Shown: in pieces, positions 16,557-64,000 of the stretch
Position numbering within the stretch: position 1 is the stretch's first letter
How the letters are laid out: the number at the start of each line of letters is the position of its first letter
Origin: Mugil cephalus
Taxonomy: Eukaryota; Chordata; Actinopteri; Mugiliformes; Mugilidae
Direction: 5' to 3'
NCBI RefSeq assembly: GCF_022458985.1
Contig: NC_061776.1
Location: forward strand, 8,124,379-8,188,378
Length of the DNA: 64,000 nucleotides
Position numbers and translations under genes: made by a program
The notes under the pieces: generated by a model
What the model was told of the DNA's origin: nothing
The model's database searches: none
The model's input: the letters and a program-made list of their open reading frames with translations, nothing else

Positions 16557-18434
16557 CGCACCAGCATACCCAACAGCTGTGGTGACTTTTGTGAAGAAAG
16601 ATTTTTCTTTCGGAGAACAGAAACCTTAATAGTATCAAGAAATACACATCTGCACACACGCATGAGATGAAAACAGAAGCTGCGTTTTCTTCCTCTTTTT
16701 TGTTAGTCCAATCCTAAAAAAATAAATAAATAAAAACGCAGCACAAAAGACAAGGACTCTCTGCACGTAAGGAATAAATGGTTTAATAATGGAAAACGCC
16801 TAGCACACTATACAAGCTACAGATACCAAAGGGAAGAAGAAAGTACAAACACAAATCTACAAAAGTTTTTTTTTTGTTTTGTTTTGTTTTTTGTTTTTTT
16901 ACAAGCCACTTCTTTGCAAAAGTAAAAACATTCGGGAAAAATTTGCATCGTCATAACTTAGGCACCGTAGAAACGATAGAAAATAAGTTCTTATATTAAA
17001 AAAAAAAATAAAGTCTTGGAGCCCAAAGTTACTTTATGCATGCATTTTAAGAAAAAACAAAAACAAAAAAAAAAGGGTTGGACCCGGCTTTTGGGATATT
17101 TGTCAGAAACAGTCGTGTTGTTGGTTCGGCTCCACGGACGAAGGCTGTGGGGGGGCGGAGCCTGAGGCTGAGGGTTAAGGCCGAGGGGCGGGCGGCTTTT
17201 CTCGCGGTTGCAAGGCGACGGTGGCGATGAGCTCTGTTACAATCACATGTCCGGTTTGCGATTTTTGCGGATGGGCATTGAACCAAAATACCGACACACG
17301 TCACTGCTAGAAAATGTCATTTTACACCTGGTATCATGTTGGGAAATAAATAATGTTTTAAATTTAAAAAAAAGGCTCTGCCACAGAGCTTCGTATAGAA
17401 ACATTTTGGAGCTGCGTGGTTTCCAGGCTGGTCTCTGACATGTGGTCTCTGAACAGAGGGGTGTTTGGTTTTTATCATGTGACCCTCTGAAAGCTCACCT
17501 CTGCTCACACATGAGGTCTAACACGTTCTTCATCCTCCTCCGCGGATGGTGTTGCTCAGAGGTGGCGTGTGGGCCTCCCTCCCTCCGTCCCCCATGGAAA
17601 CTGAAGCCATGAAATGAGGCCGATGACGAGCCAAGAGTCAAGCCACAGGCGGTGTTTTGCAGACCTGCGTGACGTCGTGACACGTTTTCCCGCATTTAAA
17701 TAATAATAAAAAATTAGGCAAACGGTACCGACTGTACCGTGTTAAACATTAAAAGGCTGCAGCGCTCTTTAGTTTTCATTTCATTTCGACAAGCTCTGAT
17801 TATTTAAAAAAAAAGGTCTGTGACGCCAAAGTTTTTTCACATGAAAGCTATTAAAAGCAGCACACCAGTGAGCAAACGTACTCTCGGGTACGTTTTTTTC
17901 CTCTTTTCTTTCTTTACCGTAAAAATAAACTGGACCGACAGAAATATTGATTTCATCATTTGAAACTAGCAGCCATAAGCTGTAAATAGATCTTACTAAA
18001 TGTGTCATTTCCTCATCTTTCAGTGATGTGCTGCAAACTACAAAGCTCCACGGGTCTGGGGTTAGCATCGGAGCTAAATGAAACAACGTACGTGTCTTTT
18101 TCTTTTGACAAAAAAGGAATGAGATCATTAATACCAGGTGAAAATGTTCAAGTTTCCCTGTTCAAGATGTGACATCAATAGATCAATGAAAATGCCAGAG
18201 TGGGATGAGGAGAAGCTGCATATTCAGACAAACTAGGAATGTACTTCCATATTTCTTAAGTCATTTTTTAAAACAAACAAACAAACAAAAAAAAAAAGAG
18301 GTTCGGCCCTCAAGGCAGCAGAGAAGCGACGCGTTAGCTCACTGGCACATGATGCTACATTCTGTAAGTATAAAAAGCAGGACTCAGTCCTTCAGTCTTA
18401 AGACATGACAAAGAGGAAGTGACTGGTATGACGC

Positions 18435-18436
<2 letters not shown>

Positions 18437-18466
<30 letters not shown>
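18437..18466 (+). repeat. Poly(C) run, 30 bases
   Basis: Uninterrupted C run followed by TCC repeats. In the vangl2 transcript it would be G30 followed by the rest of the 3' UTR, if the 3' UTR extends this far. Such a tract can form a G-quadruplex and is error-prone in sequencing. Confidence 0.9.
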
Positions 18467-18469
<3 letters not shown>

Positions 18470-18834
18470 TCCTCCTGGTGTTCATGAGTTGAATCAGCAC
18501 AGATGAGTAGTTCAGTGGTCACGGCAAAAGAGGAAGAGGCAAAACAAAGAAAAAAAAGAAAAAATGGAGTCCCCCTTTAGTTTGAAAAGGATTTTTACAA
18601 CGTGCACCGAAAGATTAAAGGTCAAGGCATCCGTTTGTTTCCAGGGTTTGGACAATCATCAGCTGATCACAGTTTGATATCAGAGCATCTGCGGTGGTGA
18701 AGAAACAGTCCTCGAGTGGTTTCTTTTTTTCGCAGACAGGCGTGGGAGCGAAACGACCGGACGACGATAGCCGACCAAATGGACCTGGGCGCGGCGCCCC
18801 CGCCCCGCCCTCCCTGACCTTACACGGAGCGCGC

Positions 18835-20017
18835 TCACACCGACGTCTCCGACTGCAGCCGCATGACGAACTTGTGGCTCTTGGGGTCGATGAACTCCTC
18901 CCCGAGCCGCAGGAAGGGGAGCGGCGTCACCGTGACGACCAGGGAGAAATCCAGGCGCCGCAGGGAGAAGACGAGGCCCTGACGCAGGGCCGAGGTCACG
19001 GGCTCCTCGCTCACCAGGGTCCACTGGCGCCCCCTGCCGTTCTGCTGCTGGTACTGCATGGTGGGGCCGGGGCCCAGGTAACGCTCCAGGAAAGCCTACG
19101 AATAGATCAAGAGACTCTCCTTTACACACTGACCTATCAGAGACACCTTTTACTACATTTACTACAATTATATGACTGAAAACAGTACGCTCTTGATAAT
19201 TCAATTCATTTTAGGGTTAAAAACATCTGCACTCTGTATCAGTTGTCAGGAGGAAGCCTCCGCTAACCGACCTTGGGCGTCATGTTGTGCGTGATGCAGA
19301 ACTGCAGGTGCGTGAGGATGCTCTCCATGCTGTGGAAGGCCTGCTGCCGCGTGGTCCTCAGGTACTTCTGCATGGCCCGGGCCATCGGGGCGAAGATGGC
19401 CTGAGCCGCCTCCCGGGGGTCCATCACCTCTCTGGGGTGCTTGGGAGACGAGGCCACCTCGTCCTCGTGGAGACGCTTGATGTGCGTGAAGGCCTCCTCC
19501 ACCGCCACGACCAACCTGGCGGAGCAACGGAGGGGCCGGTTCAGTACAAATACAAAGTACAAAGATATCGAACAAATGAGTAGAAAGTGACGCAACGAGA
19601 GCCGTCAGGTCACGTCCACGGATATAAAAGAGCAAATTCAACTTAGTTGAACAAGCTAATATCTGGAGAAAATGTATCTGTTGGGGCAACTACTCAGAAA
19701 CAGCAAACACCTCCTTTACTAGAGCAACTTAAATGCACCGTGCTGGGATGAGATGAACTGATTTCTGCACAGTTTAAGACTGATGATGATTTTTTTTAAG
19801 TAATCTAATCTTTGAGTATGTGTCAGCTAAAGAAAACAATATTAAGGTTCGCTGTACACTCTGTGCTGGCCTCTAAGTCACAACACAACATCAAACCCCC
19901 ACCACCCTAACAAAAACAGATGGACTTTGGTGGAAAAACCAGTAAGTGGTTGAAGAAGTTGGTTGAGGAAATGATGCATTGTAAGTTAAAACTCGAGGGC
20001 ATTTTTTACTCGTATTG

Positions 20018-20058
<41 letters not shown>

Positions 20059-23000
20059 CATATGGAGATGCTGAGGACCCGTGCAGCCCATACATTGCCC
20101 CTCCCCCCACTAGGACAGTACCTGCAGCTGTAAGGGCTGTGACCCTAGAATCGAATCGTCCCTGCTTGTGCTCTACCTCCTTTTACTTATTTTACTTTGT
20201 TGTTGTTTTTGGTTAAATTGCGACTTGTGCGATTTGTTTGAGAAAAAGGAGGAAGAGGGAAAAATATCAGCTCAGAAAAATCGATATCAGCCCTAAAAAA
20301 AAAATCCATATCGGTCGATCTCTAGTCAAAACTGTAAACACAGTAAATACAGGTCACTTTGTTCTTTGTCTGCAACCAGTCTTCATCATTTTCTGCTCAT
20401 TTGTTTTACCCTGTGGAGTTTAAATGTTCTCCCTGTGGGTTCTCTCCAGGTTCTCCAACTTCCTCCATACACCAAGACATGGCGATTAGGTTAATCAGTG
20501 ATTCTAAATTGGCCCTGAGACAGACTGGAGACCAGGATGGACCCCAACTCTTGGCCAATGACAGTCAGATAGACTCCAGCCCCCTAGCGACCCTCCAGCC
20601 AGGAGGACAAGCGGTTACAGAAAATTAATGCTATCAGCTTGTCTTCTTCTTTTTTTTGGGATTGGTAGTTTTTTTTACCATAGCATCACTGCTACAATGA
20701 GCACCTTCTTTTCTCACAAACTACGAGGTCAAAACAACAGAACATGTAGCCTCACTTCAGACTGAAATCACCAAAACAAAAAAGTACATGTCCAAACTAA
20801 ACCACTTTTAAAAATGCTCTGTTAGAATAGACAACACTGGTTACAAACCATATCAATGCTACTGTTACAGCCCCAACGTTTAATGAAGTTTCTCTCAAAC
20901 TGAGAAAATGGTTAACTTCACCACCGCCACAACAACAAGAACACGTCAGAGCAGGACTCAGGTCCTGTCAGAGACGGGCTGACGTCCAACCGTAAGAGTG
21001 CAGGTGAAGAAACCTGAGCAGACTGTGGTTTCTCTGACCTGGCCTTGCGTTTGCGGATCCGACGGTCCATCTCGGCCTCCTCGTAGTAAAACTCGTTGTG
21101 GGAGTTGTCTCGCCTCCTGGCGGCGGCTGCGATCATGGCCCGCGACTGTCCTGTGGAGTTATTGGTTGGGTTTTCTGCAAAGGTGACAAGAGTCATGAGA
21201 AATCCCATTTGAACTCTTTGCAGAGTGCAAAGAGATGAGGAGTTAGGGGAGATTATAAACCCGCGACGAGGCTGTATTTACCGTCCAGAGAGTAAACCTT
21301 GAAGCCGGTCATCTTCTTGGACAGGATGGACTTGGGCAGGTTGAGCAGAGCCGGGTTGTAGACGGAGAAGTCGCTGTAATAACGGTCCAACACCCAGACG
21401 GCTGCTCGCTGGATACTAAAACACAGAGCGTGAAGTCGTCAGTGCCTCAGCAAGTGGAATATACGCTCTCGTAATGTAATGTAATTAAATATCTTAGGTC
21501 CTTAACTATCCACATTTAATTCAGATTTTGTGACACATCACAAAAGTAACGACAGCTGCGTGAATCAAGCTGTTAGAGATCGAGGTTTTTGAATTACATT
21601 AACTCACGGTGGTTTGTGCTATTGACAAAATTCAAAGTGTGGCTGAACACTGGGAAGCTGTACTTTTTGTCTGGAAGACCTTCGTGACATCTCAAGGGTG
21701 TAACTAACTTGTTTTCTTTTACCAACAAATTCCTCTAAACAACTCTCTCTTCCTGGGCCTCCCAGTCTGGCGTCATCATTACCGTAATGGCAGCTTTTTT
21801 TCCAGAAAGGGCAACGACCAAGTGTTCAGCCACACTTTGAATTTTGTCCATCAGTGAGTTACGGTAATTCAAATACTAAGCTATTCCTTATCCCTTTACT
21901 AAAATATGTTGGATTCATGTTCATGTGTATTTAAAGAAATTTAAATTTGTCGGGGGAAATTAAAATATATATATATATAAAAAATGTTTAATCAACCAAA
22001 GACCCTCTGAAGTGTCTCTGCAGACCCCCTGTTGAAAAACCTACGTCTTAAAGGGTCAATCTGTCCCACAAACCTGAGGTGGCCCACGTTGTAGAACTTG
22101 CTGGCTCCGTCCGTGCTCCTCACCACCTTGAGGCAGAAGGCCGGCTGCAGGTGCCGGACCTCCAGCAGGACCAGGGCCAGGTACTGGATGAAGAGCAGGG
22201 CGTCCACCAGCGAGGCGGCGTACTCCACGATCCCCCTGTAGTCCCTCTCCCGGGGCTCCAGCACGCGCACGCCGTAGAACAGCCAGTACGACGCCACGAA
22301 CAGGAACACCAGCACCATCAGCAGGCAGCGGAAGACGAAGAAGCGCGGGAGGGTGGCGCGGGGCGGCCGCAGGAACAGCGCCCAGGACGAGATGAGCAGG
22401 ACCAGGAGCTTGAAGGCCAGGGAGACGTAGAGGCCCTCGCAGGGCGTCCCGCAGGGCTCCAGGGCGTCCCGCCACAGGACCTGCGGGAGGATGAGGAAGG
22501 CGAGCGGCGTGAGCAGCGCGAAGAAGCTGAGGCAGCCTCCCAGCGCCGGGCCGACGAAGCGCTTGCACTCGAGAGGAGTCGACTCCTCCAAATCTTTGGT
22601 GACGCGGGTCAGGTCCTCATTGGAGATGCTGTGCTCTGAGGTGCCGGTGACGACCGTGGTGGTTTCTCCCCAGTTGTCGTCCTGAATGATGAGGAAATGT
22701 GTGTTAACGATGTTTTTTTTTTGTTTTTCTTTGCAATGCAATTTAAAAATCTGTCACATTTTATTTATTTGGCAGCTTTTAGGACAAATAAATGCCATTC
22801 AAAGTGCTTTAGGTTGTGACTGACTAAAATATATATAGAAAAAAAGGTGAAATGAAACAACAGAAATGGACATAAAATAAGAAAACAAATAACAAAAATA
22901 TGAAATTGATAAAATATAAAAAAGTACGATATAAGAAGATTAAAACTAGAATGAAAAAATTTGCAAAATAAAATATAGAATAAAATACACAAACACCCAA

Positions 23001-24587
23001 AATTAAGATAATGGTTAAAAAAATAAAATAAAAAAACATAAATTAAATTAATTTAAAAAAAAAAGGAGCAAATAAATAAAGTAAATAAAATGGGAGAATA
23101 TAAAACTGTAAAATATAATAAAATAACTAGAGGACATAAAAGCCAGATTAAAGAGGTGGGTTTTTAGCCCAACATCAAAATGTGTTTGGTATTTTTAGTA
23201 AAACTTCATGTCCAACTCTGCAAATATGTGAAAATGAGTCAAAACCTGAGGTCATTTATCATTTAGTGAATAATCTCTGCTTCCAGCTTCTCAAACATTA
23301 GACTTTTCTGCTTTGACGTCACAGACATGAATCAATAAGAGACAAAATGTGACACAGTTTAAATGAAAAGTTTGTTTAGGAGGTAAGAAAGGCCTGAGTT
23401 AGTATGTGGTACGTTTTTAATATTTCCCAATTTAACTGCGCGTCCTCAGTCCTTTAAACTATTTAAAGACGACGTGAACGTGAATTCCTGCTCTGAAAAC
23501 TCGTTGGGTTAATATCCACCCACAGACGTTGTTTTGATATGAACTGAAACTGCGATGAAGTCACAGATCCAGTGTAAGAGGTCGACCACGCTGCTGTTTA
23601 AAGGGCAACTCCTGCTCCGGTCGACCGAGAGACTGGAGTTAAACATTCATCTGTGGTCGAACTGGTTTTGATTTACACCGATCAGCCACAACATTAAAAC
23701 CACCGACGGGAGAAGTAAATTGAGCATCTCGTGATGATTCATTGTTCTGCTGGGAAACTTTTGTACCTGGAGTTCATTCATGTGGATGTTACTGAGACAT
23801 GCAGGATGCAGCCTGACACAATATTAGGACGGTGGTCATAATGTTATGCCTGATCGGCGTACTTTGAAAAACCAAACACCAGATCTAGACTAGTTCTGTG
23901 CAGCGCGACTCAACAATTGGCTGCCGACAAATCAGAACGAGCAGATGTGTCGGTGTAACGGACCCTTTCGTCTCCGCGGGTCGACTCTGCGTCGAGGAGC
24001 GGCTCCCCGGGAGTTTGGATGGTGACAGATTTGTCGGCGCGACTGCTGCTGTCTCGGCTCTTGGAGCGGTGACGGTCCCTCCTGTCCCTGCAGGAAAGAA
24101 AAAAAAAACAAAAACACACACAAGGTGAACGGATGTACAGACTAACCCGAAGAGGATTTGAATCAAACGTCTCTTAATCCAAGTCCAAAATAAAGTATTT
24201 TATTTAGAAACACTAAGTCGACATTATTCACATCAGATAACTTCATATTTTCCTTGTAGATAATAGATGACGGAGCTTTCAGCGTCTGAATATGTGTAAT
24301 TTCTGCTCAAAAAATAAAAAATGATATAAAAATCTATCAGCTGTCACTGGTTAGAGGCGTTTCTTGTTGTTTTTCCAGTAGTTCCGTGTGTCTCTATGAA
24401 ACATACCACAGATTCTGCCTCATTATAAAGACTCAGTTACGTGATGAGGAGTAAATGAGGAGCTGAACACAAACTCCGTGTTGAGACGTCGTCCTTTTTC
24501 TCCACATTTCACCCACCTGTGCTTGCGGGAGCTCCTGGAGTGGGACGACTTGTACGAGTAGCCCGAGTACTGCGACTCGTTGTCCAT
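18835..24587 (-). CDS. vangl2: Vang-like protein 2, planar cell polarity core membrane protein
   Basis: Four-pass membrane protein of the core planar cell polarity complex (with Prickle, Celsr, Fzd and Dvl). Exons: 24587-24517, 24087-23964, 22681-22074, 21415-21282, 21174-21039, 19515-19272, 19095-18835, giving 525 residues from the ATG (human 521). The N-terminus [17 protein letters not shown] carries the Ser/Thr phosphorylation cluster. The large exon holds all four membrane segments (for example [15 protein letters not shown] and [19 protein letters not shown]). The cytoplasmic C-terminal domain follows, with [14 protein letters not shown] and [10 protein letters not shown], and the protein ends ETSV, the PDZ-binding motif. 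All phases agree. The exon 24087-23964 uses a weak GTCCGT donor. Vangl2 rather than Vangl1 is chosen because the N- and C-terminal segments match Vangl2 closely and the neighbours match the human VANGL2 locus. Confidence 0.97.
20021..20062 (+). repeat. (TA)n microsatellite
   Basis: TA dinucleotide run of about 15 units with a degenerate TACATA tail, inside the vangl2 intron between 19515 and 21039. Confidence 0.9.
20395..20630 (+). repeat. 3' end of an L2-type LINE (5'-truncated)
   Basis: The sequence matches the typical teleost L2 3' end: GTTCTCCCTGTGGGTTCTC, CTTCCTCCATACACCAAGACATG, GTTAATCAGTGATTCTAAATTG, CCAATGACAG, ACTCCAGCCCCC and finally CAAGCGGTTACAGAAAATTAATG. It lacks the reverse transcriptase region. 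It lies in a vangl2 intron, antisense to the gene. Confidence 0.7.
21586..21875. mobile_element. Long-TIR MITE family (GAATTAC..GTAACTCA), copy 1
   Basis: The left arm reads GAATTACATTAACTCACGG, then ATTGACAAAATTC and AAAGTGTGGCTGAACACTGGG. The right arm is its inverse (GTGTTCAGCCACACTTTGAATTTTGTCC, then GAGTTACGGTAATTC). The arms are about 65 bases and the whole element about 290 bases. The spacer has no coding sequence. A close copy lies at 58894-59166. Both are in introns. Confidence 0.75.
21881..22049 (+). mobile_element. GGGGTCTTCAAC-family element, copy 2
   Basis: Shares CTATTCCTTATCC, CTAAAATATGTTGGATTCATG, TATTTAAAGAAATTTAAATTTG, TAATCAACCAAAGA and the terminal CAGACCCCCTGTTGAAAA with other copies. 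It abuts the long-TIR MITE on its left and ends about 25 bases from the large vangl2 exon. Confidence 0.65.
22741..23180 (+). repeat. AT-rich dispersed repeat
   Basis: It begins CATTCAAAGTGCTTTAGGTTGTGAC, ends AAAGCCAGATTAAAGAGGTGGGTTTTTAG, and the middle is an AAAATAAA-rich low-complexity stretch. This start and end pattern is common among dispersed teleost repeats. No coding capacity. It lies in the vangl2 intron between 22681 and 23964. Confidence 0.45.
23673..23861 (+). mobile_element. MITE of the CAGCCA-ACATTAAAACCAC family, copy 2
   Basis: Complete short element: left end TTTACACCGATCAGCCACA, ACATTAAAACCACC; right end GGTGGTCATAATGTTATGC, CTGATCGGCGTAC. The two ends are inverted over about 30 bases. 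It lies about 100 bases from a vangl2 exon. Confidence 0.8.
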
Positions 24588-24767
24588 GTCTCGGGCCGGC
24601 GGTGAGCGGGCTTTACGAGCCCCGCCTCCTCCTCCTCCTCCTCCTCCTCCTCCCGTGCCGCGGTGCTCGCCGACTCCTCCCAGCTGGCTCTTGCGCTCGG
24701 AGATGGACTTGGTGGAGAGAGCCAGGGGCAGCTTGAGCAGGTCAACCTTACTCCTGAGGGAATCTAT
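24588..24767 (-). CDS. vangl2: Candidate N-terminal extension of Vangl2 from an AUA start (long isoform)
   Basis: Directly upstream of the vangl2 ATG, 180 bases (60 codons) are open in the same frame. Reading from ATA at 24767-24765, the protein starts I(or M)DSLRSKVDLLKLPLALS, continues TKSISERKSQLGGVGEHRG, then a glycine run and ARKARSPPARD before the annotated Met. The ATA has A at -3 and G at +4 (AAGATAG), a strong context. The first 35 codons use diverse amino acids and do not look like random UTR. From memory, a longer Vangl2 isoform initiated at a near-cognate AUA codon has been reported in vertebrates; I cannot check that this segment is homologous. There is no upstream stop before the probable acceptor at 24848/24849, so another near-cognate codon is possible. 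Confidence 0.6.
24620..24655 (-). repeat. vangl2: (GGA)n repeat coding a glycine run in the candidate Vangl2 extension
   Basis: On the minus strand nine GGA codons followed by GGC GGG lie in frame with the Vangl2 ATG. If the extension is translated they give an 11-glycine run; otherwise they form a G-rich 5' UTR element about 50 bases from the start codon. Confidence 0.85.
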
Positions 24768-24848
24768 CTTGGAGGCCGATGGGGAGGGGGGCAGGAGAAG
24801 GGGGGGAGGAGGAGGACGCGGGAGGGGACGGGAGAGCGGGAGGGGAGG

Positions 24849-24888
24849 CTACAGAGAGGAGGAGGAGGAGGAGGAGGAGGAGGAGAGG
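24849..24888 (-). promoter_or_regulatory. vangl2: Probable 3' splice site of vangl2 exon 2 with (CTC)n polypyrimidine tract
   Basis: The minus strand reads a run of CTCCTC triplets, then CTCTCTGTAG. This is a strong acceptor, placing the 5' edge of the first coding exon at 24848. The tract is a microsatellite, so its length may vary. A second possible acceptor, CTTCCAG, lies further upstream near 24945. The assignment is inferred. Confidence 0.5.
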
Positions 24889-25555
24889 GGTGGGAGAGGA
24901 TGACGGGTAGGAGAGTGACCGCCAGGGGGAGCTGTGGAGGTTGAGACCTGGAAGAGGGAGAAAAGAGAGTTAAAACCTTTCACACTGTCACTAGTTTCTC
25001 TTTACTTATTTATTTATGACTGAATGAAAATGAACCGAATAGTTATTAACTGAACGTGTAAAACTACAAACACTAACTCTGGCTTCTCCACAGCCTTAAA
25101 TCCGTTACTGCACATTTAACTACGCCCGAAGGAATTTAATTGTTTAAAACCAGAGGACTTAAGATCACACAGAGTTATGTGCGACATTTATAGGGGATGA
25201 TGTCGGCTTTGTGACTTAACTTTACGACTTTGTGGACATTTAATTAAACCAAACCCACAACTTATTATTTATTTATTTATTTAGTTAAAGAACAATGCGA
25301 TTATTTTATCTGCAGCTTCAGCTTCTCATACAGTCCTGATAAATCCACAAGAGTTCCTCAAAGAGTAAAAGTTGCTATTAGAGCTGAAGAAGCTACTTTG
25401 ACGAGCGGCGAAACATCTTCCAGAAACTCTACAACCTCTTTTAGGAAATATTACGACCTGAGTGACAGAAGAGCATCGACCCTCATCTGGAATAAAGGAA
25501 ATATGTGAAACATTAAGACTTGTTTACAGATGAAACCACATCTCGTTAACAGATT

Positions 25556-25560
<5 letters not shown>

Positions 25561-25594
<34 letters not shown>
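25561..25594 (+). repeat. (GT)17 microsatellite
   Basis: Uninterrupted GT dinucleotide run in vangl2 intron 1. Confidence 0.95.
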
Positions 25595-25596
<2 letters not shown>

Positions 25597-25609
25597 TGTC
25601 GGGTTCTTC

Positions 25610-25712
25610 ACTTTGTTTCTTGTTGTAATGTTTTATGTTTTTATTTGCCTGAAACATTTAGGGTTGCATTTTTTTGTAGGAAGAGTGTTATATAAATAAA
25701 GTTTGATTTGAA
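25610..25712 (+). repeat. Fish LINE-like 3' tail
   Basis: Ends with AGTGTTATATAAATAAAGTTTGATTTGAATTG, a tail typical of dispersed non-LTR copies in fish, with a GT microsatellite just upstream. 5'-truncated. Confidence 0.4.
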
Positions 25713-26579
25713 TTGCTGTTCTATTATATGAACACTTGTGACCGACTCTCATTTGTGTTTTATTATTGGTTCTTGTTTTGCCTTTTCAGTTGTATCACTC
25801 TATTCTTTCTTTTGTCTTTTTATTATTATTATTATTTTCTGTTTCTGTCCTGTTCCTGTTCTTTTTTAAAAGAAAAAATCCTTGTTATTTCTTGTTTGTA
25901 TTCACTCCGTTGCCCTGTAATAAAAAATAAATAAAATTAAGCTTTATGTGACAAGTTCTAATGTTAAATTGTATGTAATTAGATCATCACCTCCTCTGTG
26001 GTTCAGTGTGAAAGCAAAAAACACTATATATAAAAAAAATCATAAAATGAGGTGTCATCCTCCTTCTCCTTTATGATCTATGTACCGATTACTTTTACAT
26101 TTCAGTGTTTATTTTTCGGTTTAAATCCGTGACAAACTCAGACCGGTTTGTGACTAATGTTTACTTTCATCACTGACAAGTGTTTTGACTTTCTCCAGCA
26201 GATTAGTAAACAGAAAAGTTCACACGGGGGAGTCACAGCAGTCTGAGGCGACGCGTTAAAGTTGTTTGTTCTGTCAAAATCATCAGCTCCTAATCCACAG
26301 ATATGCAAATCACAGCGATTATTATATAGAATCTATCTGAGTCGTCTTTTATTTATTCTTCCGTGCAACACGTTGGTGCCTGTGGTTGTTTTAAAGTGCT
26401 GGATATCAAACAGTAAATCTGGAAATCTTTTCACTGGAACAAGCAAATGATTTCCTTTAAAACCAACTTTTTTTTTCCAGTCCTATCAGGCTCAGCCCCC
26501 CACCCTCCCTCCCTCCACTGGCTGTGAGCTGTGATCTAAAACACATTAACCCCTGTAAACGTCAGGCTTTGGTTTCACT

Positions 26580-27075
26580 GTGCGAGCTCGCAGAGCGTCT
26601 TCCAGGTCTCGGCTGAGGGTTAATCATCACACGACTGTATCTCCTCTCTCTCCGTCTCGGAGAAGCCGGCTTCAGCCGCCGTTAGTCTGCGACACAATGG
26701 CGGCCATATTGGATTACTGTGTTTTCACAAAACTTGTTTGCCCTCTCCCTCTCCATCTCACATTCCCTCCCTCACGCCCCTCGTCCCCAGGGAAACAGGA
26801 GAGGGGGGAGGAGGGGGGCCTCGCCGCTGCCATGGTGATGAAAGAGGGCGTTCATCTGAAGGGAGGGGGGATTGGAGGCTGACAGTTGCCGTGGAAACCT
26901 GACCTCACGCCGCCCCCGGGGCCACTCCGTCCTGTCACGCCAGAGGAAAAAAATCGCCAAAATAAAAGCTCAGCGTCACACGCTGGTTAATTGATAAAGG
27001 GCGGGCGGGGGCTCGCCCGCCTTTGATTGGCTCTCCGTGGGAAATGGAGAGGGACGGTAGCTGCCACCGACGTGT
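26580..27075. promoter_or_regulatory. vangl2: GC-rich island in vangl2 intron 1, possible internal promoter or enhancer
   Basis: In an otherwise AT-rich intron this stretch has raised GC, a perfect YY1-type site (CACAATGGCGGCCATATTGG), an inverted G/C box (GGCGGGGGCTCGCCCGCC), and a CCAAT box on the minus strand (AGAGCCAATC). It sits about 2 kb upstream of the first vangl2 coding exon. These are promoter-like features; no transcript evidence is available to me. Confidence 0.4.
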
Positions 27076-27422
27076 CACATGGTCCTGATTTTTACTTAAT
27101 GAGGTTTTCATGCTCCTTCGACCGCCATTGTGTTTAAAAATCCACTTCCCTTCAAGTCAAATACTGTACGGATCCGTCTGGCAGAGTTTCTCCACATCAT
27201 ATAAGCCACATACTCTTTTTCTTCCACAGTCTTTGATTCATATTCCTTTCTCTTAAGTGGATGTGCTCCTCGTCTGGGCCTGAAATGCATCAACTTCTTG
27301 TTTTTTTTTTTAACCAGAACAGGGACGATTTAGGAGGCCCAGCAGCCATGTGCAAAACCTCTACAACAAAACGCCAATTTCAAACCACAAAATGCAAATG
27401 ACTCACAGCTGCTTCCTGGTGT

Positions 27423-27423
<1 letters not shown>

Positions 27424-27456
<33 letters not shown>
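27424..27456 (+). repeat. (ATC)n trinucleotide microsatellite
   Basis: About 11 uninterrupted ATC units in vangl2 intron 1. Confidence 0.95.
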
Positions 27457-27984
27457 GAAACAGCTTTTATCTCTGGGAATGAGCAAAAAATCAGGCTCCA
27501 TTTAGAGCCGAACAAAAAATGTCATGATTCATGTGACCACATGTTACAGCTGTGACAGGGAGGAATCTTCACGTCAACCTGACTGGAATTAAACTGAAAA
27601 GGCACATTAAAAAGAAAGACAAGAGCGGGCAGAGGGAGTTTGTGAATAGTTTCACATGGAGGAGCAGCTTTAAGTGGAGCTCCTCGGCATAAATACGTGT
27701 GGACAGTAAGCAGAGAGGACTGAAAAGATTCCCAGGCACACCGCATTCTTTTTAGACGCGCAACAGACCGAATCTAAACAGTGTCTTAATCTAAAGGCTG
27801 GAACCAGCTCTCCCAGACAGAGACACGTCCCAAATCACAATCAGAACAATCCTCTCCGGCTTTAACCTTGATCCAACCACCTCGTAAAACAACAATTAAG
27901 CAACTAGAGCAGAGGGAGCGAAAGATGAAGGAGCGATGTTTTATTTTAGGAATGCCATTTAACCCTGTGCAGTGGGGCCGGGGT

Positions 27985-28616
27985 GGTGCACCGGTTCACA
28001 CCGAATACCGGTATTTTTTTTACCGTTATGATATGAATTTTTAATATACCGGCATATTTGATTACACAGCGTTCAGAACAAAGCGCCCGCAAGACAATCA
28101 ACCATTTTCATTGTAGCGCCTGCGTCACTGCGAGGTGTGGTGAAGATGGAAAGGTCTAAAAAAACACGAAAAACAGGTGCCATGTCTTTTGTTTGGGTTT
28201 TTTATAGGGTGACCAGACGTCCCCGATTTCTGGGGACAGTCCCCGTTTTGGATGATGTGTCCCCCTGCTTAAGCTGTCCTCGAAAATGTCCCCAATTTTA
28301 GCTTTTTATGAATGAGAAAAAAAAAATGTTGCACGCATACTACAAATATTACGGTAGCCAGTCCCACTTCTATTGACATCACAGACATAGCAGTTTAAAT
28401 GTGTATAAATATGTCAAAATACATGAAGCTGTGATTGTCTGTTTCTTCATTTCATTTTTATAACATTTAATTCTTTTTTTTTTTCATCTACTGTAAATGT
28501 CCCCACATCAGCAATAAATAGTAAAATAGTCCATCCTTGGTCAATCCATTGCATTAATTCCTTTCCCAACCAGTAGAAAATGTTGTGAACCATCAGAATT
28601 TTGAAATATACCGTGA
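27985..28616 (+). mobile_element. hAT-like non-autonomous element, copy 1
   Basis: It begins with ACCGGTTCACACCGAATACCGG, followed by TGTGGTGAAGATGGAAAGG, GGGTGACCAGACGTCCCCG and GAAAATGTTGTGAACC, and ends with AAATATACCGTGACC. A second copy at 61121-61706 shares most of this. There is no open reading frame for a transposase. The accession-like ends (tatACCGG and ATACCG) hint at hAT, but this is inference. Confidence 0.55.
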
Positions 28617-29268
28617 CCATATACATACATGATCACATGATGTGTGTTTGTGTCCAGATAATTGACAAGATGACCGCCAGCTCTGTGAATCAGACAAAAA
28701 CATGCAGCGCGTATAGGGTCCACATGGATCTACATACTTTAGGGAGCAATTACTGGGGCCGAGAATAGACGTCTAGATCTCTCCTGGTGACCTCTAAGAG
28801 TGGACGACAAACCTCGTGGGAAAGAGCAAACACTGGAGTGATAACTTCAAGGCTTGTTGAGTGGGCGGCACACTACAAGAGCAGCAAATGGAAACCTATT
28901 TAAATGCGTCGATGACCTTACAATATGAGATTCTAGTGATGTGTGATAGAGTTCATTCTACGATAATGCGCCCGTTAGACTTTGGCCTGATAGTGGTACA
29001 ACGTGACGAGGTAAAGGCAATTAAAAGCAACAAATCTTGAGATGCTTCGCACGGATTGGTTGAACCCAATAACTGTATCCAACCGCTGAACGACAAAAAC
29101 CGAACAGGTATAGCTGGTTTTCATTGTTGCTCCATTCGGTTAGTAATGAGGTTTATCTTCATCATTTATCATCTTGAGTTATTCAAACGTGACAAAAGAG
29201 GCAAAGTCGTCCTTATGATGCATCGAAAAAAAAAACTTTTGATGGGTAGATACTTGATTTAATTAGAA

Positions 29269-29270
29269 TC

Positions 29271-29347
<77 letters not shown>

Positions 29348-29500
29348 TAGCGGTTAGATAGAGTTAGACAGCTACATAGATGGGTTAGGTCAGATAGATA
29401 GCTAGATAGTTGAGCTAGATAGTCGAGTTAGATTAGATAGCTAGCTAGCCAGATAGCTAGCTGGATAGATAGCTGAGCTAGCTAGATAGCTAGCTCAACT

Positions 29501-29554
<54 letters not shown>

Positions 29555-29600
29555 GAGTTACAAAGATAGCTAGAAAGCTAGCTAGCTAGCTAGATAGACT
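29269..29600 (+). repeat. Compound GATA microsatellite array
   Basis: A pure TAGA/GATA run of about 78 bases (29269-29346), a degenerate middle built of GATAGCTAGCTA variants, then a second pure run (about 29501-29555) followed by AGCTAGCTAGC. It is the largest simple-sequence array in the window and lies in vangl2 intron 1. Confidence 0.95.
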
Positions 29601-32600
29601 TCTTTCCTTTTACTCTGGAGACCTGACATCATCATTGTCAGCATTGTCCTCTATGTCACAAAAAAACAAACTACATTTGACCCGTTATCCACATAATGAG
29701 ACACACATGGTACAAAAGCAGACTTTGAAAGGGGAGCCTCCATGAGGCCAACAAAGACACGACTAAACAAAAGGCGTTGGTTCTCTACTTTTTAACTTGG
29801 ATCAAACCCATTTTCTGATCAGATTCTGGTGTGAGACAGTTTCTAAGAGTCCAGCGATGCCTGTGGTTCAGAAAGCTGTACGTTGGGTAAGAAATGGTAG
29901 ATGCTGTTCCCTCTGTGCACACATCCCTGACCCTTACACTTTGAAATAAGCCTGGCTGCCTCCGCGTCGGCCTCTTAGTGATAATATGACAGAACACTTG
30001 ATCTACAAAGGTGTGGCCCTCTAGTGAGATGGATAAGGTTTCCTATTCATCCCAACTGCCCCGTGCCCTACTTCATGGACTCTTCTGGTCGACTTCATTC
30101 AGCAGATTCATGTTAAATACAGATCATTTAAAATAAAGGCATCTGAATAGAAGTGATCGCTTAAGCCCATTCTGTGAAAACACAATTTATATCTGGGTGT
30201 AATTTCTGATCTGCCTCTTTAGTCTAACGGGTTCTTTTCTTTTCTCAAGACTCGTCTATTGTTCCTGGGAAACCGTTGTTAACTAAACAGTGGTGAGATT
30301 ATTTTTCCCTTTCTTCTTTTAAAGAAAAACACTTGACTCTTTCATTTGATTGATTTCTAAACAAGTGTTTACATATAGTTCTTAAATGAATTCAACAGAG
30401 GACCCCGTAGGAGGCCAGGCCAGCGATCTGTGTGTGTGTGGGTGGTCTGAGATTAAACAGTGATGATGTTGGGCTTCAGGTGCACCGATGCCACGGATGG
30501 CTGGTTTTATGGCTTGGGCCACAGGAAGCGCAAAGTCGTTAAATATGCGCCGTCAACTGAGAGTCAAGATAAGGGTTTACTCCAAAAACATAAGCACAAA
30601 CACATTCAGTAGGATTTGTAAGAAACCGAAACCTTAATTAAACAGACAAACTCAACTCGTTCAATTCTGGTTTTTATTTTTTTAACTTTCTATTATGATC
30701 AGTTAAGTGATAGTTTCAACTTTCAACCACATGGTTCAACACTTTTATCCAGATTTCAACACAGAAGGTTGTGAAAGATAATCTGAGGTACATCTGCAGA
30801 TCCAGAATCCTAACACAGCAGCATAACTGATCCCAAGTAACACTTGTTAAGAAGCTTTTTTTAGTGACTAGTGTTAGAAATCAGGCTTCACTATGTCCGA
30901 TGCTCTGTTCACACTAGCAATGAGGGAACGACAACTTACAACACATTTTCAGAGGAAGCCGGTGTGCTCTGGTGCAGAGACACGACAAGCCACTCGTGTG
31001 CTTTACCAGTTCACATGTCATATATAGTTAGTTCCTATTCCAAACAAGCCCGTTGTCGTCAGCACTCAAGCGTGAACGAACTGTAAACGCAACCATAGCA
31101 ACAACCTTTATTGCAGTTTCTCTAATGGCCACTAGATGCTGGCCCCAAAAACTGAGTCAACTGAGTCCCCGTAAACGTCCGTTTTAACCCTTTAAAGGGC
31201 AAGGAACCAAATTTGGCAACTTCCACAAGCATTTTAAATCTTGTCCTAGTGCCTCTCAGTGAGGTTTAGAAGCATGTGGTTTTCACTCAGCCAATCAGAG
31301 AAGATCAAGGAAGCGTTCTCAGGTCAAATCAGGGTCACGTGTGGTTCAACAAGGTCCACCTCTGCATGAACTCTGAGCGTAACTGCTGCATTAGGTACCA
31401 CAAAGAAGTGTACTAATCTAGTCGTCTAATTTGACAATGTGTATATTGGCATTGACAGCTTTTACATTCTGATGGTCAAAAAAATGAACATGTTTACATT
31501 TTCTTACCACTCAAGGACAGGAAACCATATGTGGTAAATTCATTAATCTTGATTTTCTCCATGAAAATAATGATAACACTAGTATTTCAACTAGTGCTCT
31601 ATAAGGGGTTAAAAGGAGTTGAAGTAAACATGCTTAGAAGCCTTAGCAAAACAATCTCTTTGGCCAATTTCTCAATTTCTATCAATTGTATGTTTTTTGG
31701 TCTTTTTCTGGTCAAATTATATCAAGACTTCAGGTTATTCATGGAATTCCACTTATTATTGATTTTACATTATGGTTAAGTGCCACGTGTGGGGAATACT
31801 AAATCCGTTTGGTCCAACTTTATTTTCCAATCCGTCACCAACTTTTGTCCACACTAAACCAATTCTGACAAAATATTTTAACTAAAAGCGGAGTGAGGCC
31901 TCGTCAAGATGGTGCCGGCCAGACCCACGACTCACTGGGCTTCTTTTTGGTTCTTCAGTAGGTCCATATGTGACATTACAACAAGTTGGTTCATCTTTAT
32001 ATACAGTTTATGGCATGGCCACACACTAACGCCACTACGTTACCAGAGATCCCACAAAAACACGAGTTCAGCTACAGCAAACACTTAGATGGTTAGCAGT
32101 GAAGAGCCAGAACTCGCAGCCCAATGGCTGCCAAATTTACATGACACTAAACATGCACTGCTGCGGGCCAATTCCTTTTTTATTTTCGACATTTGCTTTT
32201 ACACATTTGTAGCCTTATGATCTCATATCCCTGCCAAACAGCTTTCAGTTTAAAACCAAGTGAAGGTCTCGTCATTAAGTTCACAGCGTTCATGCTCCAC
32301 AGACAGCATCATCAAACCATCAAATAAAACCCAAACCACATCGAGTCACTCAAAACAAGCAGATGTCAGCTTTTACAGCCTCCATTTTTGCCCCCAAAGG
32401 CAAAAAAAAGAAGAAAAAAGAAAGAAATCAAGCTGTCATTGAACATTTTTTGGAGCTGCTGGCACCGGGACAGCAGCTGTCAGTAGTGGAAAAGCAAGCT
32501 GGGACATCTCTGCAATGACCAGCTCCCCTCCACAGCCATTTGAGGCCTGATATGCCAACTGTGAAAATAACGCACACACACACACACACAAGCTCAGTCT

Positions 32601-44400: not shown

Positions 44401-47400
44401 ACACCATCATTAATGTGAACCTTGATCTCAGAAACTCCTCTTTACAAATGAATGAAGTTTAAAGTTAACCTAGCCTTATGCTAACCATATGCTAACCTTA
44501 TGCTAACCTTATGCTAACCTTATGCTAACCTTATGCTAGCTAGTTATCTAGACTAAAGGCTGAGAATAAACAGGCTTGAATAGCAGCTACGGTCATATAT
44601 ATACTGTGAAACCCATGTAATTTATGTCCATGTAGACAGACAAATTTAACTGACACGTAACTTTAGTCGGTCAGTTTAATTTTCACTATTTCTGAGTATT
44701 AATTGGATTATAATTTTTCTGAGTAATTTCAAACTTTTAACGTTGATGGATGAACACGGAGGCTGAGGAGAAAGTAAACACAGCTCCATGACTGATGAGG
44801 TGATTGAGCTACAAAGCATTTTACAGCCTCATTTAAGATATTTAAAGTAAGTAGACGCTGGGATATTTAAGTGAGGGCCTTTTACATATTGATTGGACCA
44901 TTAATGGAGAAAATAAGACATTCATTTCAACATAGCACATCCAGCCTATAGTGTCACACTGTAGAATCTTCCTTCCGATGTATCGAACATGACTCTCTCT
45001 AATACACGGCTCTGGTCCTACATGCTGTACATACCCTGGCTGAGGCTGAAGCTGATGTGACTCCTCCTCATGCATGTGGCCGTGTCCGTGACGGCCGACA
45101 TGTGCGAGAAGAGCTGCATGGCGCACAGCGGGTACTGGGGCTTGGAGCCGTTCGCCGCCCGGTTGTGCTCAAAGTAACACTGCGAAAGGGAGGAAATTAT
45201 TCACATAATGAATCTCTCAGCGTGTTGCCACAGACACAAGAAAACCGCAATGACATTTTAGTATCGTGAACATTTTTCAATCCTCAGAACGAGTTGGGAC
45301 GTGTGCAGCCGGGCCCAGTGGTGCTGCTGCTAATAATGCTGCTGCTGCTGCTCGTTGGCAGGTTTGAGCGCACCGAGACAAAACGTTTCGCTTCTTGTGC
45401 GGTAGCTGCCGTGATCAAACGCGAAGGAGAACTGCTTCCCTTCACCTGCCCTGACATTTTTATCAAGTGCAGTTGGCAACCACAAGCACTGTACTACAAA
45501 TAAACCATAACACGACTACTCACTGAAACAGATCAGAACACACACATAAGACACGCGCCCACACAGACAGTTCTGAAACGAGAACCGAAAGCAACGCTTC
45601 ACGTGGAACTTTAAAATCATTATAAGACGGCCCGTGTGTTTTTGTCACTTAAAGCAGACGGGCGGAAGGAAAACCAGGCAACAAGTTGTCGAATCTTAAT
45701 GCGCCACAACATGCCCTACATGGCTACGATCTAACGAGCCGCTCCAGCAGCTTCACTGGCAGCTTTCCTGGTCCCAACCACCAGTGAGACGGGTTCAGAT
45801 CGAGCTCTATTGTGACTGTTTCTCATCCATTCCCCTAACGGCAAAACCGCAAGCAGAAAAACAATTAAGCAAACGTCGCAGAGGGAGATCTGTGGAGCGG
45901 TTTACCTGCCGTATGACTTCGGTGTCGTTGTCGTCCTTCACGGAGAAGATGGGGAAGTCGTACTCCTCGTAGGAGAGGCCGTTCCCCAGGGGGTTCCACA
46001 CCGTCACATTACAGTGGGCCAGGGCCGGATCGTAACTCTCTGAATAAACACCTGAGGGAACACACACACACATATATATATATATATGGATAGATATAGA
46101 TAGATTTTTTTTTCCCCCCACAAATTTCTTTAAACACACATTAACATGAGTGCAACATATTTTAGTGAAGGTATAAAGGACGGTTTAATATTGAATGCAA
46201 AATGATAATAATAATGTATATTAATAAATAGAACTAGGCCGAGTTTAATATATAACACATATAGTAGGTCCCTACTTATAAAGCACTTATTAAACACTCT
46301 TCCTACAAAAAAATAATGCAACCTTCAGTGATTCACAAAAATAAAAACATCACAACAAGAAATGAAATCGCCCACGCTGCATACACACATACAGACACGC
46401 ACAAACACACTCACACGTCCACACCCACATATACACTAAAAGTTGTTGACGAGACACGGCAGGACACTGAGGCTTAAAAGGCTACAAACTATTATTACTA
46501 AAATATAAACACTTTGTGGAAGTGTAGAAAAATAAATAATAATATTAAGGTGCTATTAATTTACTTGTGGTGAATAAATGTAACAGAGACAGACGAGCCA
46601 GTGTGTGAGGTGTGTCTTTGAACACAGTGTAAGAAACACAGGCCGGTCTGAAGTCTCTCTGAACACTTGAGACTTTCTAATTTAGTGTAACCACTGACCT
46701 CTGTTAAACCCTGATCACTTTTTTGGCATCATGCATCTTATTTTTTTATTCTTGTATTACTTTATCCTATTTGTATTTGACTATGTCACCTGGGAACTGT
46801 CACTTTATGGGAACATAAATGTAACGCATACAAACGTGAATCTATGGTAGAAATGATCTTTTGTGAAGTACTATGTTTTGTGTAACATGTAGTCCACTTG
46901 CAGTATTTCCCCGCTGCTTTATGTGTCACAACGTTTTAGACTGAGACAGACTTTAATGATCCACAGGGGAAACTGCTTGATCACAGTAGCTTAGTTGCAC
47001 ATGAAAACCACAAGTAAAAAGAAAGATAAAATAACATAAAGATAGATTAAAAGGTGCTAATGAGTTATCATTAGCAGGGAGATATTTTTGATTTAGCACA
47101 TGTATTTAAAAGCTGGGGCTGCTAGCTCCTTTTAACATTAAATCTTTATAGAAAATACCTCTAACTTCAGAAAATAACCTAAACAATCCAACTTTATGGA
47201 AACAAAAATCTAGATTTTGACCATCTACAACATATTGGTTCATACATTATATTATCATTTAGGAGAAAATCACGTTTTCTTTTGTTACTTTAAATACATT
47301 TTACGAACTAAACTTCTGTATTTTTTTTAAACTTATGCTTATGCCATTTTTATTTCAGTGAAGGATGTAAACACCTTCCGTCTGAATGTTGAAACGATGA

Positions 47401-51154: not shown

Positions 51155-64000
<12,846 letters not shown>

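Follow-up and report, generated by a model that had tools for sequence, protein, structure and literature searches.

The closest described system to the one reported here, an N-terminal extension of the vangl2 gene in a 64,000-nucleotide stretch of Mugil cephalus DNA (NCBI RefSeq assembly GCF_022458985.1, contig NC_061776.1, positions 8,124,379 to 8,188,378 of the forward strand; "the window" hereafter means this whole stretch), is Vangl2-Long, an AUA-initiated isoform of Vangl2 described in human and mouse as well as in Xenopus (PMC11065751, J Biol Chem 2024). The human AUA lies at -144 and its replacement by GCA abolishes the long form in transfected human cells; a protein product is reported in human, mouse and frog, with Vangl2-Long peptides found in human and frog (PMC11065751). 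The extension comprises 48 codons in human and 53 in Xenopus, a second initiation site has been suggested as the source of an intermediate frog band, and zebrafish is included, according to its legend, in the Vangl2-Long alignment of Figure 1G (PMC11065751). Planar cell polarity in frog embryos needs the long form, which in Xenopus takes part in closing the neural tube and in the centriole polarity of ciliated cells, and Vangl1 is described as having no such extension (PMC11065751). Human VANGL2 has also been assigned an AUA-start model (PMC9789052) and its AUA extension reported to be conserved in fish (PMC11317171). In the conserved extensions of other genes, such as CCDC8 (CUG) and USP19 (AUA), a near-cognate codon ahead of an AUG likewise serves as an in-frame start; these genes are unrelated and are likened by mechanism and not by sequence (PMC9789052; PMC11317171).

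The original prediction, made from the letters of the window, was that the 180 bases upstream of the vangl2 ATG form a stop-free extension of Vangl2 opening at an AUA codon, and it named a vertebrate isoform of this kind as a precedent; the published accounts of Vangl2-Long (PMC11065751, PMC9789052, PMC11317171) bear this out. Our analysis leads us to conclude that the extension is very probably the N-terminus of Vangl2-Long, started at the AUA by leaky scanning and 60 residues longer than canonical Vangl2.

The upstream frame and AUA codon of vangl2

The canonical vangl2 ATG occupies 24587-24585 on the minus strand, in the context GAC ATG G, and opens a first coding exon (24517..24587) whose predicted boundary is set by a GT donor from 24516. 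In the same frame and strand, the extension (24588..24767), delimited by frame and by conservation in a second vangl2 copy, runs for 60 codons, or 180 bases with zero stops, from an ATA near-cognate start codon at 24767-24765 (24765..24767) to the canonical ATG. The ATA comes directly after AAG, which supplies A at -3, and the base at +4 is G; both codon and context are the same in the second copy. The open frame as a whole reaches 87 codons back from the ATG, as far as an edge at 24848, where it is ended by a TAG at 24851-24849. The extension and the 400 bases that precede the ATA contain a single ATG in any frame, at ATA-348, beyond this in-frame stop. A scan for a set of 7 near-cognate codon types listed eight in-frame codons between the TAG and the ATG, and only at the ATA are A-3 and G+4 both present. 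On re-reading the frame, the translation, coordinates and description given in the original prediction all proved correct, including the 60 stop-free codons before the ATG, the ATA at 24767 with A-3 and G+4, and the lack of an in-frame ATG upstream, none occurring within the open frame and the sole ATG lying past the TAG. The open frame alone is not unusual and offers little proof of coding, since 466 of 2000 dinucleotide-preserving shuffles of the 180-base extension are stop-free.

The features of this region resemble those of Vangl2-Long in several respects: an in-frame AUA upstream of the vangl2 AUG, A-3 and G+4, first residues of the form I-D/E-S-L-R/K in fish and frog, and an extension of similar size that was not found in vangl1. 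The X. laevis start region, taken from morpholinos printed in PMC11065751, has an ATA with A-3 and G+4 and reads IESLKES, as compared with IDSLRSK in the fish, a comparison that covers the first residues only. The human antibody peptide printed in the same paper (residues 30-47) gave no clear match by eye to the tail of the fish extension. The fish differs in that two vangl2 copies carry the extension and in that the copy in the window has a glycine run, most of which is encoded by a GGA repeat (24625..24653, minus strand; 9.7 perfect copies). This repeat is missing from the other copy, implying that the glycine run is a local expansion and not a conserved part of the isoform; the original prediction had taken the run to be a feature of the long form, and on this point it did not hold. 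The repeat is likely to be a length-variable coding microsatellite. On the plus strand it reads as CCT, and a second perfect triplet repeat, likewise with about ten copies (24856-24885; GAG on the plus strand), lies upstream of the extension.

Conservation between the vangl2 copies

For comparative purposes we label each copy by its contig: C7 for the vangl2 gene in the window, C1 for the second vangl2 copy, which is on another chromosome, and C23 and C12 for the two vangl1 copies. A search with the extension and first exon (84 residues) recovered the query itself (E 4.0e-47) and a match at C1:48676409-48676642 on the minus strand (E 3.5e-28, with 79% identity across residues 1-84), the remaining 101 of the 103 matches having E-values of 4.0e-4 or worse. 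The C1 copy encodes IDSLRSKVDLLRLPLALSSKSISNRKSQLGVVWEKGGGSGTGVTLKLRPPPATD, then MDNESTYSGYSY, and opens at an ATA with A-3 and G+4 at position 1343, minus strand, of locus L009 (G000:C1:48675300-48685299); its extension has 54 codons, as against 60 in C7.

Conservation is concentrated in a core of 30 codons (IDSLRSKVDLLKLPLALSTKSISERKSQLG; 24678..24767, minus strand), in which 27 of 30 residues are identical in C1, an identity at least as high as that of the transmembrane exon between the two copies (84.2% of 202). When the ATA is set aside, the 18 base differences in the other 29 codons fall 6, 2 and 10 at codon positions 1, 2 and 3. Fourteen of these codons are changed, 11 of them synonymously, giving a synonymous divergence (dS) of 0.74, a nonsynonymous divergence (dN) of 0.126 and a dN/dS of about 0.17. 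The same residue is kept in 26 of 29 codons, compared with a mean of 17.6 and a maximum of 25 when the same changes were placed at random 20,000 times. The core boundary was picked after inspection of the alignment; a test on 41 paired codons outside the ATA, which is independent of that boundary but in which the tail was paired by eye and 18 C7 and 12 C1 codons around the glycine stretch were omitted as unpairable, gave a dN/dS of 0.32 with 33 of 41 residues kept (null mean 23.4, maximum 31). For codons 2-23 counted from the canonical start, dN/dS is about 0.10. Conservation of the extension in the C1 copy is far beyond chance.

The upstream limit of this conservation coincides with the ATA. 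The copies agree at 28 of 28 positions in a block (24748..24775, minus strand) that starts 8 bases ahead of the ATA and reaches into codon 7; this block has a single match within the window when up to 3 mismatches are allowed. Further upstream, between -60 and -11, the five ungapped ten-base bins contain 1-5 matches per 10, and beyond those bins no convincing alignment of C7 with C1 was found by eye, so that alignment is lost about 10 bases upstream of the ATA. Constraint therefore starts at the ATA and its initiation context, a pattern expected of initiation at this codon and not of translation from further upstream.

The vangl1 copies provided a further comparison. Their start exons were located at 2028 of L020 (C23) and 3126 of L011 (C12). 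A search with the core in six loci including both vangl1 copies gave no credible match (best E 1.5), and the frames upstream of the vangl1 ATGs, open for 132 codons in C23 and 35 in C12, resemble by eye neither each other nor the extension. The C23 leader is an example of a long open leader without conservation. Protein-level conservation in C1, together with the lack of a counterpart in vangl1, supports, on the strength of sequence comparison, the suggestion of the original prediction that this fish encodes the same kind of long form.

Probable initiation at the AUA and competing accounts

In the mechanism that we favour, ribosomes scanning the vangl2 mRNA would sometimes start at the AUA, which has a good context and no earlier AUG in the open frame, presumably placing Met at this codon, and most would scan on to the AUG to produce canonical Vangl2. 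Leaky scanning of this kind is the simplest account, and by analogy with frog, this fish may be expected to translate the extension and use it for the same purpose. Several observations weigh against this interpretation. For this fish the evidence consists of genome sequence only, and past the core the extension is poorly conserved, with the same residue encoded by 7 of the 12 codons that could be paired there. Acceptor-like AGs at 24948 and 24849 in C7, and 9 bases before the ATA in C1, leave room for a spliced upstream AUG, and in C1 the open frame extends 123 codons back from the ATA and contains three in-frame ATGs (ATA-249, -216 and -180), from which the C1 long form could start at an AUG if the upstream DNA is in the transcript. 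Finally, folds of 80 and 68 bases in both copies revealed no consistent RNA hairpin favouring the AUA. In C7 these gave z-scores of +1.42 and +0.97, with 187 and 164 of 200 shuffles folding as well; in C1 they gave -0.83 and -1.61 (46 and 13 of 200 shuffles), with structures that differ from those of C7. Such a hairpin is not supported.

The competitor that survives best is translation of the extension from an AUG further upstream, situated in a spliced exon or, in C1, in the contiguous frame, with the AUA read as an ordinary isoleucine codon. The candidate acceptor AG at 24948..24949 (minus strand), identified from sequence features, follows an all-pyrimidine tract, and the in-frame TAG at 24849..24851 (minus strand) is also a possible acceptor (pyrimidine fraction before the AG 0.94), whose use would make that stop codon intronic. 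In C1, 9 bases separate the end of a strong acceptor-like site (CTTCTTCTTCCCTCAG) from the ATA, and the three C1 ATGs noted above share the open frame of the extension; these ATGs are perhaps intronic. The C1 copy also has an extra in-frame GTG with A-3 and G+4 context seven codons after the ATA. We nevertheless give translation from an upstream AUG only a slight chance, since no constraint is seen upstream of the ATA and its context, with A-3 and G+4 kept in both copies and frog. The C7 open frame contains no ATG and its 27 open codons upstream of the ATA are of low complexity and unalignable with C1. Moreover, the change of AUA to GCA abolished the long form in human cells (PMC11065751).

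It is highly improbable that the region is instead an untranslated but conserved 5′ leader, acting as regulatory DNA or RNA and open in frame by accident. This would accommodate the 28 of 28 identical bases around the ATA, the 466 of 2000 stop-free shuffles and the somewhat stable shorter C1 fold (13 of 200 shuffles fold as well). However, differences between the copies cluster at third codon positions (6, 2, 10) and residues are kept far above chance, with fewer kept in the other frames of the core: 19 and 16 of 29 in the forward frames, and 19/30, 21/29 and 16/29 in the reverse frames. No Rfam family reached its gathering score in window positions 18000-30000, the C7 folds are no better than those of shuffles, and a protein product is reported in human, mouse and frog (PMC11065751). 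Scarcely credible is a functionless chance frame in a GC-rich, repeat-rich leader, for although simple repeats occur inside and upstream of the extension, open frames of such length are not rare here and the 132 open codons of C23 vangl1 are not evidently similar to the other vangl1 copy, this account is contradicted by the 27 of 30 core residues identical in C1, a level at least that of the transmembrane exon.

We also looked for recognisable features in the extension itself. Pfam identified no family in it at E-values up to 0.01. Eleven PDB sequences matched at E-values up to 1 (best 0.04), and were rejected as relatives because they were judged to be matches to the glycine run or to composition. 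An amphipathic helix in the core was not supported: 4047 of 5000 shuffles (C7) and 3463 of 5000 (C1) reach the observed moment.

Gene identity, neighbourhood and significance

Downstream of its first coding exon, vangl2 continues on the minus strand through a coding exon at approximately 23964..24086, identified from sequence, an exon with the transmembrane region, starting from QDDNWGE, at approximately 22076..22684, and the remaining coding exons in 18838..21420 (approximately 21420-21277, 21175-21038 and 19523-19269, the last inside 19134-18838), which end in ETSV. Against the PDB chains named Vang-like protein 2 and Vang-like protein 1, which we take to be human, the transmembrane exon of C7 reaches 331.5 and 320.7 bits, respectively, and that of C1 reaches 315.5 and 307.9; the margins for Vang-like protein 2 are modest in both. 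For the vangl1 copies it is Vang-like protein 1 that gives the higher score (C23, 248.2 versus 222.1; C12, 180.8 versus 168). In an unrooted tree of six sequences, in which the C23 and C12 rows span 144 and 143 of 202 columns, C7 groups with C1 (support 1.0) and C23 and C12 group with Vang-like protein 1 (support 0.908). The branch of the C12 vangl1 copy (L004 / L011) measures 0.45, compared with 0.08 for its C23 partner, over about 143 residues, and this copy looks fast-evolving.

Pfam analysis of nine pieces of the window assigned one to nicastrin (45807-46184), three to coatomer alpha/beta (54367-58569) and one to a generic WD40 family (63283-63723), and left four of the nine, the extension among them, without a match. 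Nicastrin and coatomer-alpha exons thus lie beside vangl2 in the same orientation on the minus strand, the coatomer gene perhaps extending to 63723, in agreement with the human VANGL2 neighbourhood, which we take to contain NCSTN and COPA. All four contigs also carry calsequestrin genes: these are about 3-10 kb past the vangl1 copy on both C23 and C12, whereas their distance from vangl2 is about 1 Mb on C1 and 15 Mb on C7. We infer that the teleost genome duplication gave rise to C7 and C1 as vangl2 duplicates and to C23 and C12 as the corresponding vangl1 pair.

The Vangl2-Long phenomenon and its biological principle are already published, and the fish case is most probably the expected ortholog. 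The 2011 study by Ivanov et al. was reportedly an in silico prediction. That study is referred to in PMC3460870. Among the papers listed, as judged by titles and the openings of abstracts, no fish- or duplicate-specific descriptions were found besides PMC11065751 and PMC11317171. What is new here is modest: a test on two duplicates within one genome and the recognition of the glycine run as a copy-specific GGA repeat. A more speculative proposal, which we consider unlikely, is that AUA-initiated long forms have persisted in both teleost vangl2 duplicates ever since these arose, but that the copies now differ in how the long form is supplied, C7 through a length-variable GGA-repeat extension and C1 through an AUA 9 bases inside a possible exon start together with an extra GUG. 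The ratio of long to short form would then be adjusted separately in each copy by splicing and a second start.

Gene models beginning at the ATG would omit the long form. From this arrangement it also seems likely that a tag inserted at the ATG of fish vangl2 would break up the long form, a parallel to the argument made for a mouse allele in PMC11065751. The retention of the AUA in two copies, with constraint that starts at this codon, constitutes a natural replicate within one genome, indicating that the start codon and the extension have both been selected.
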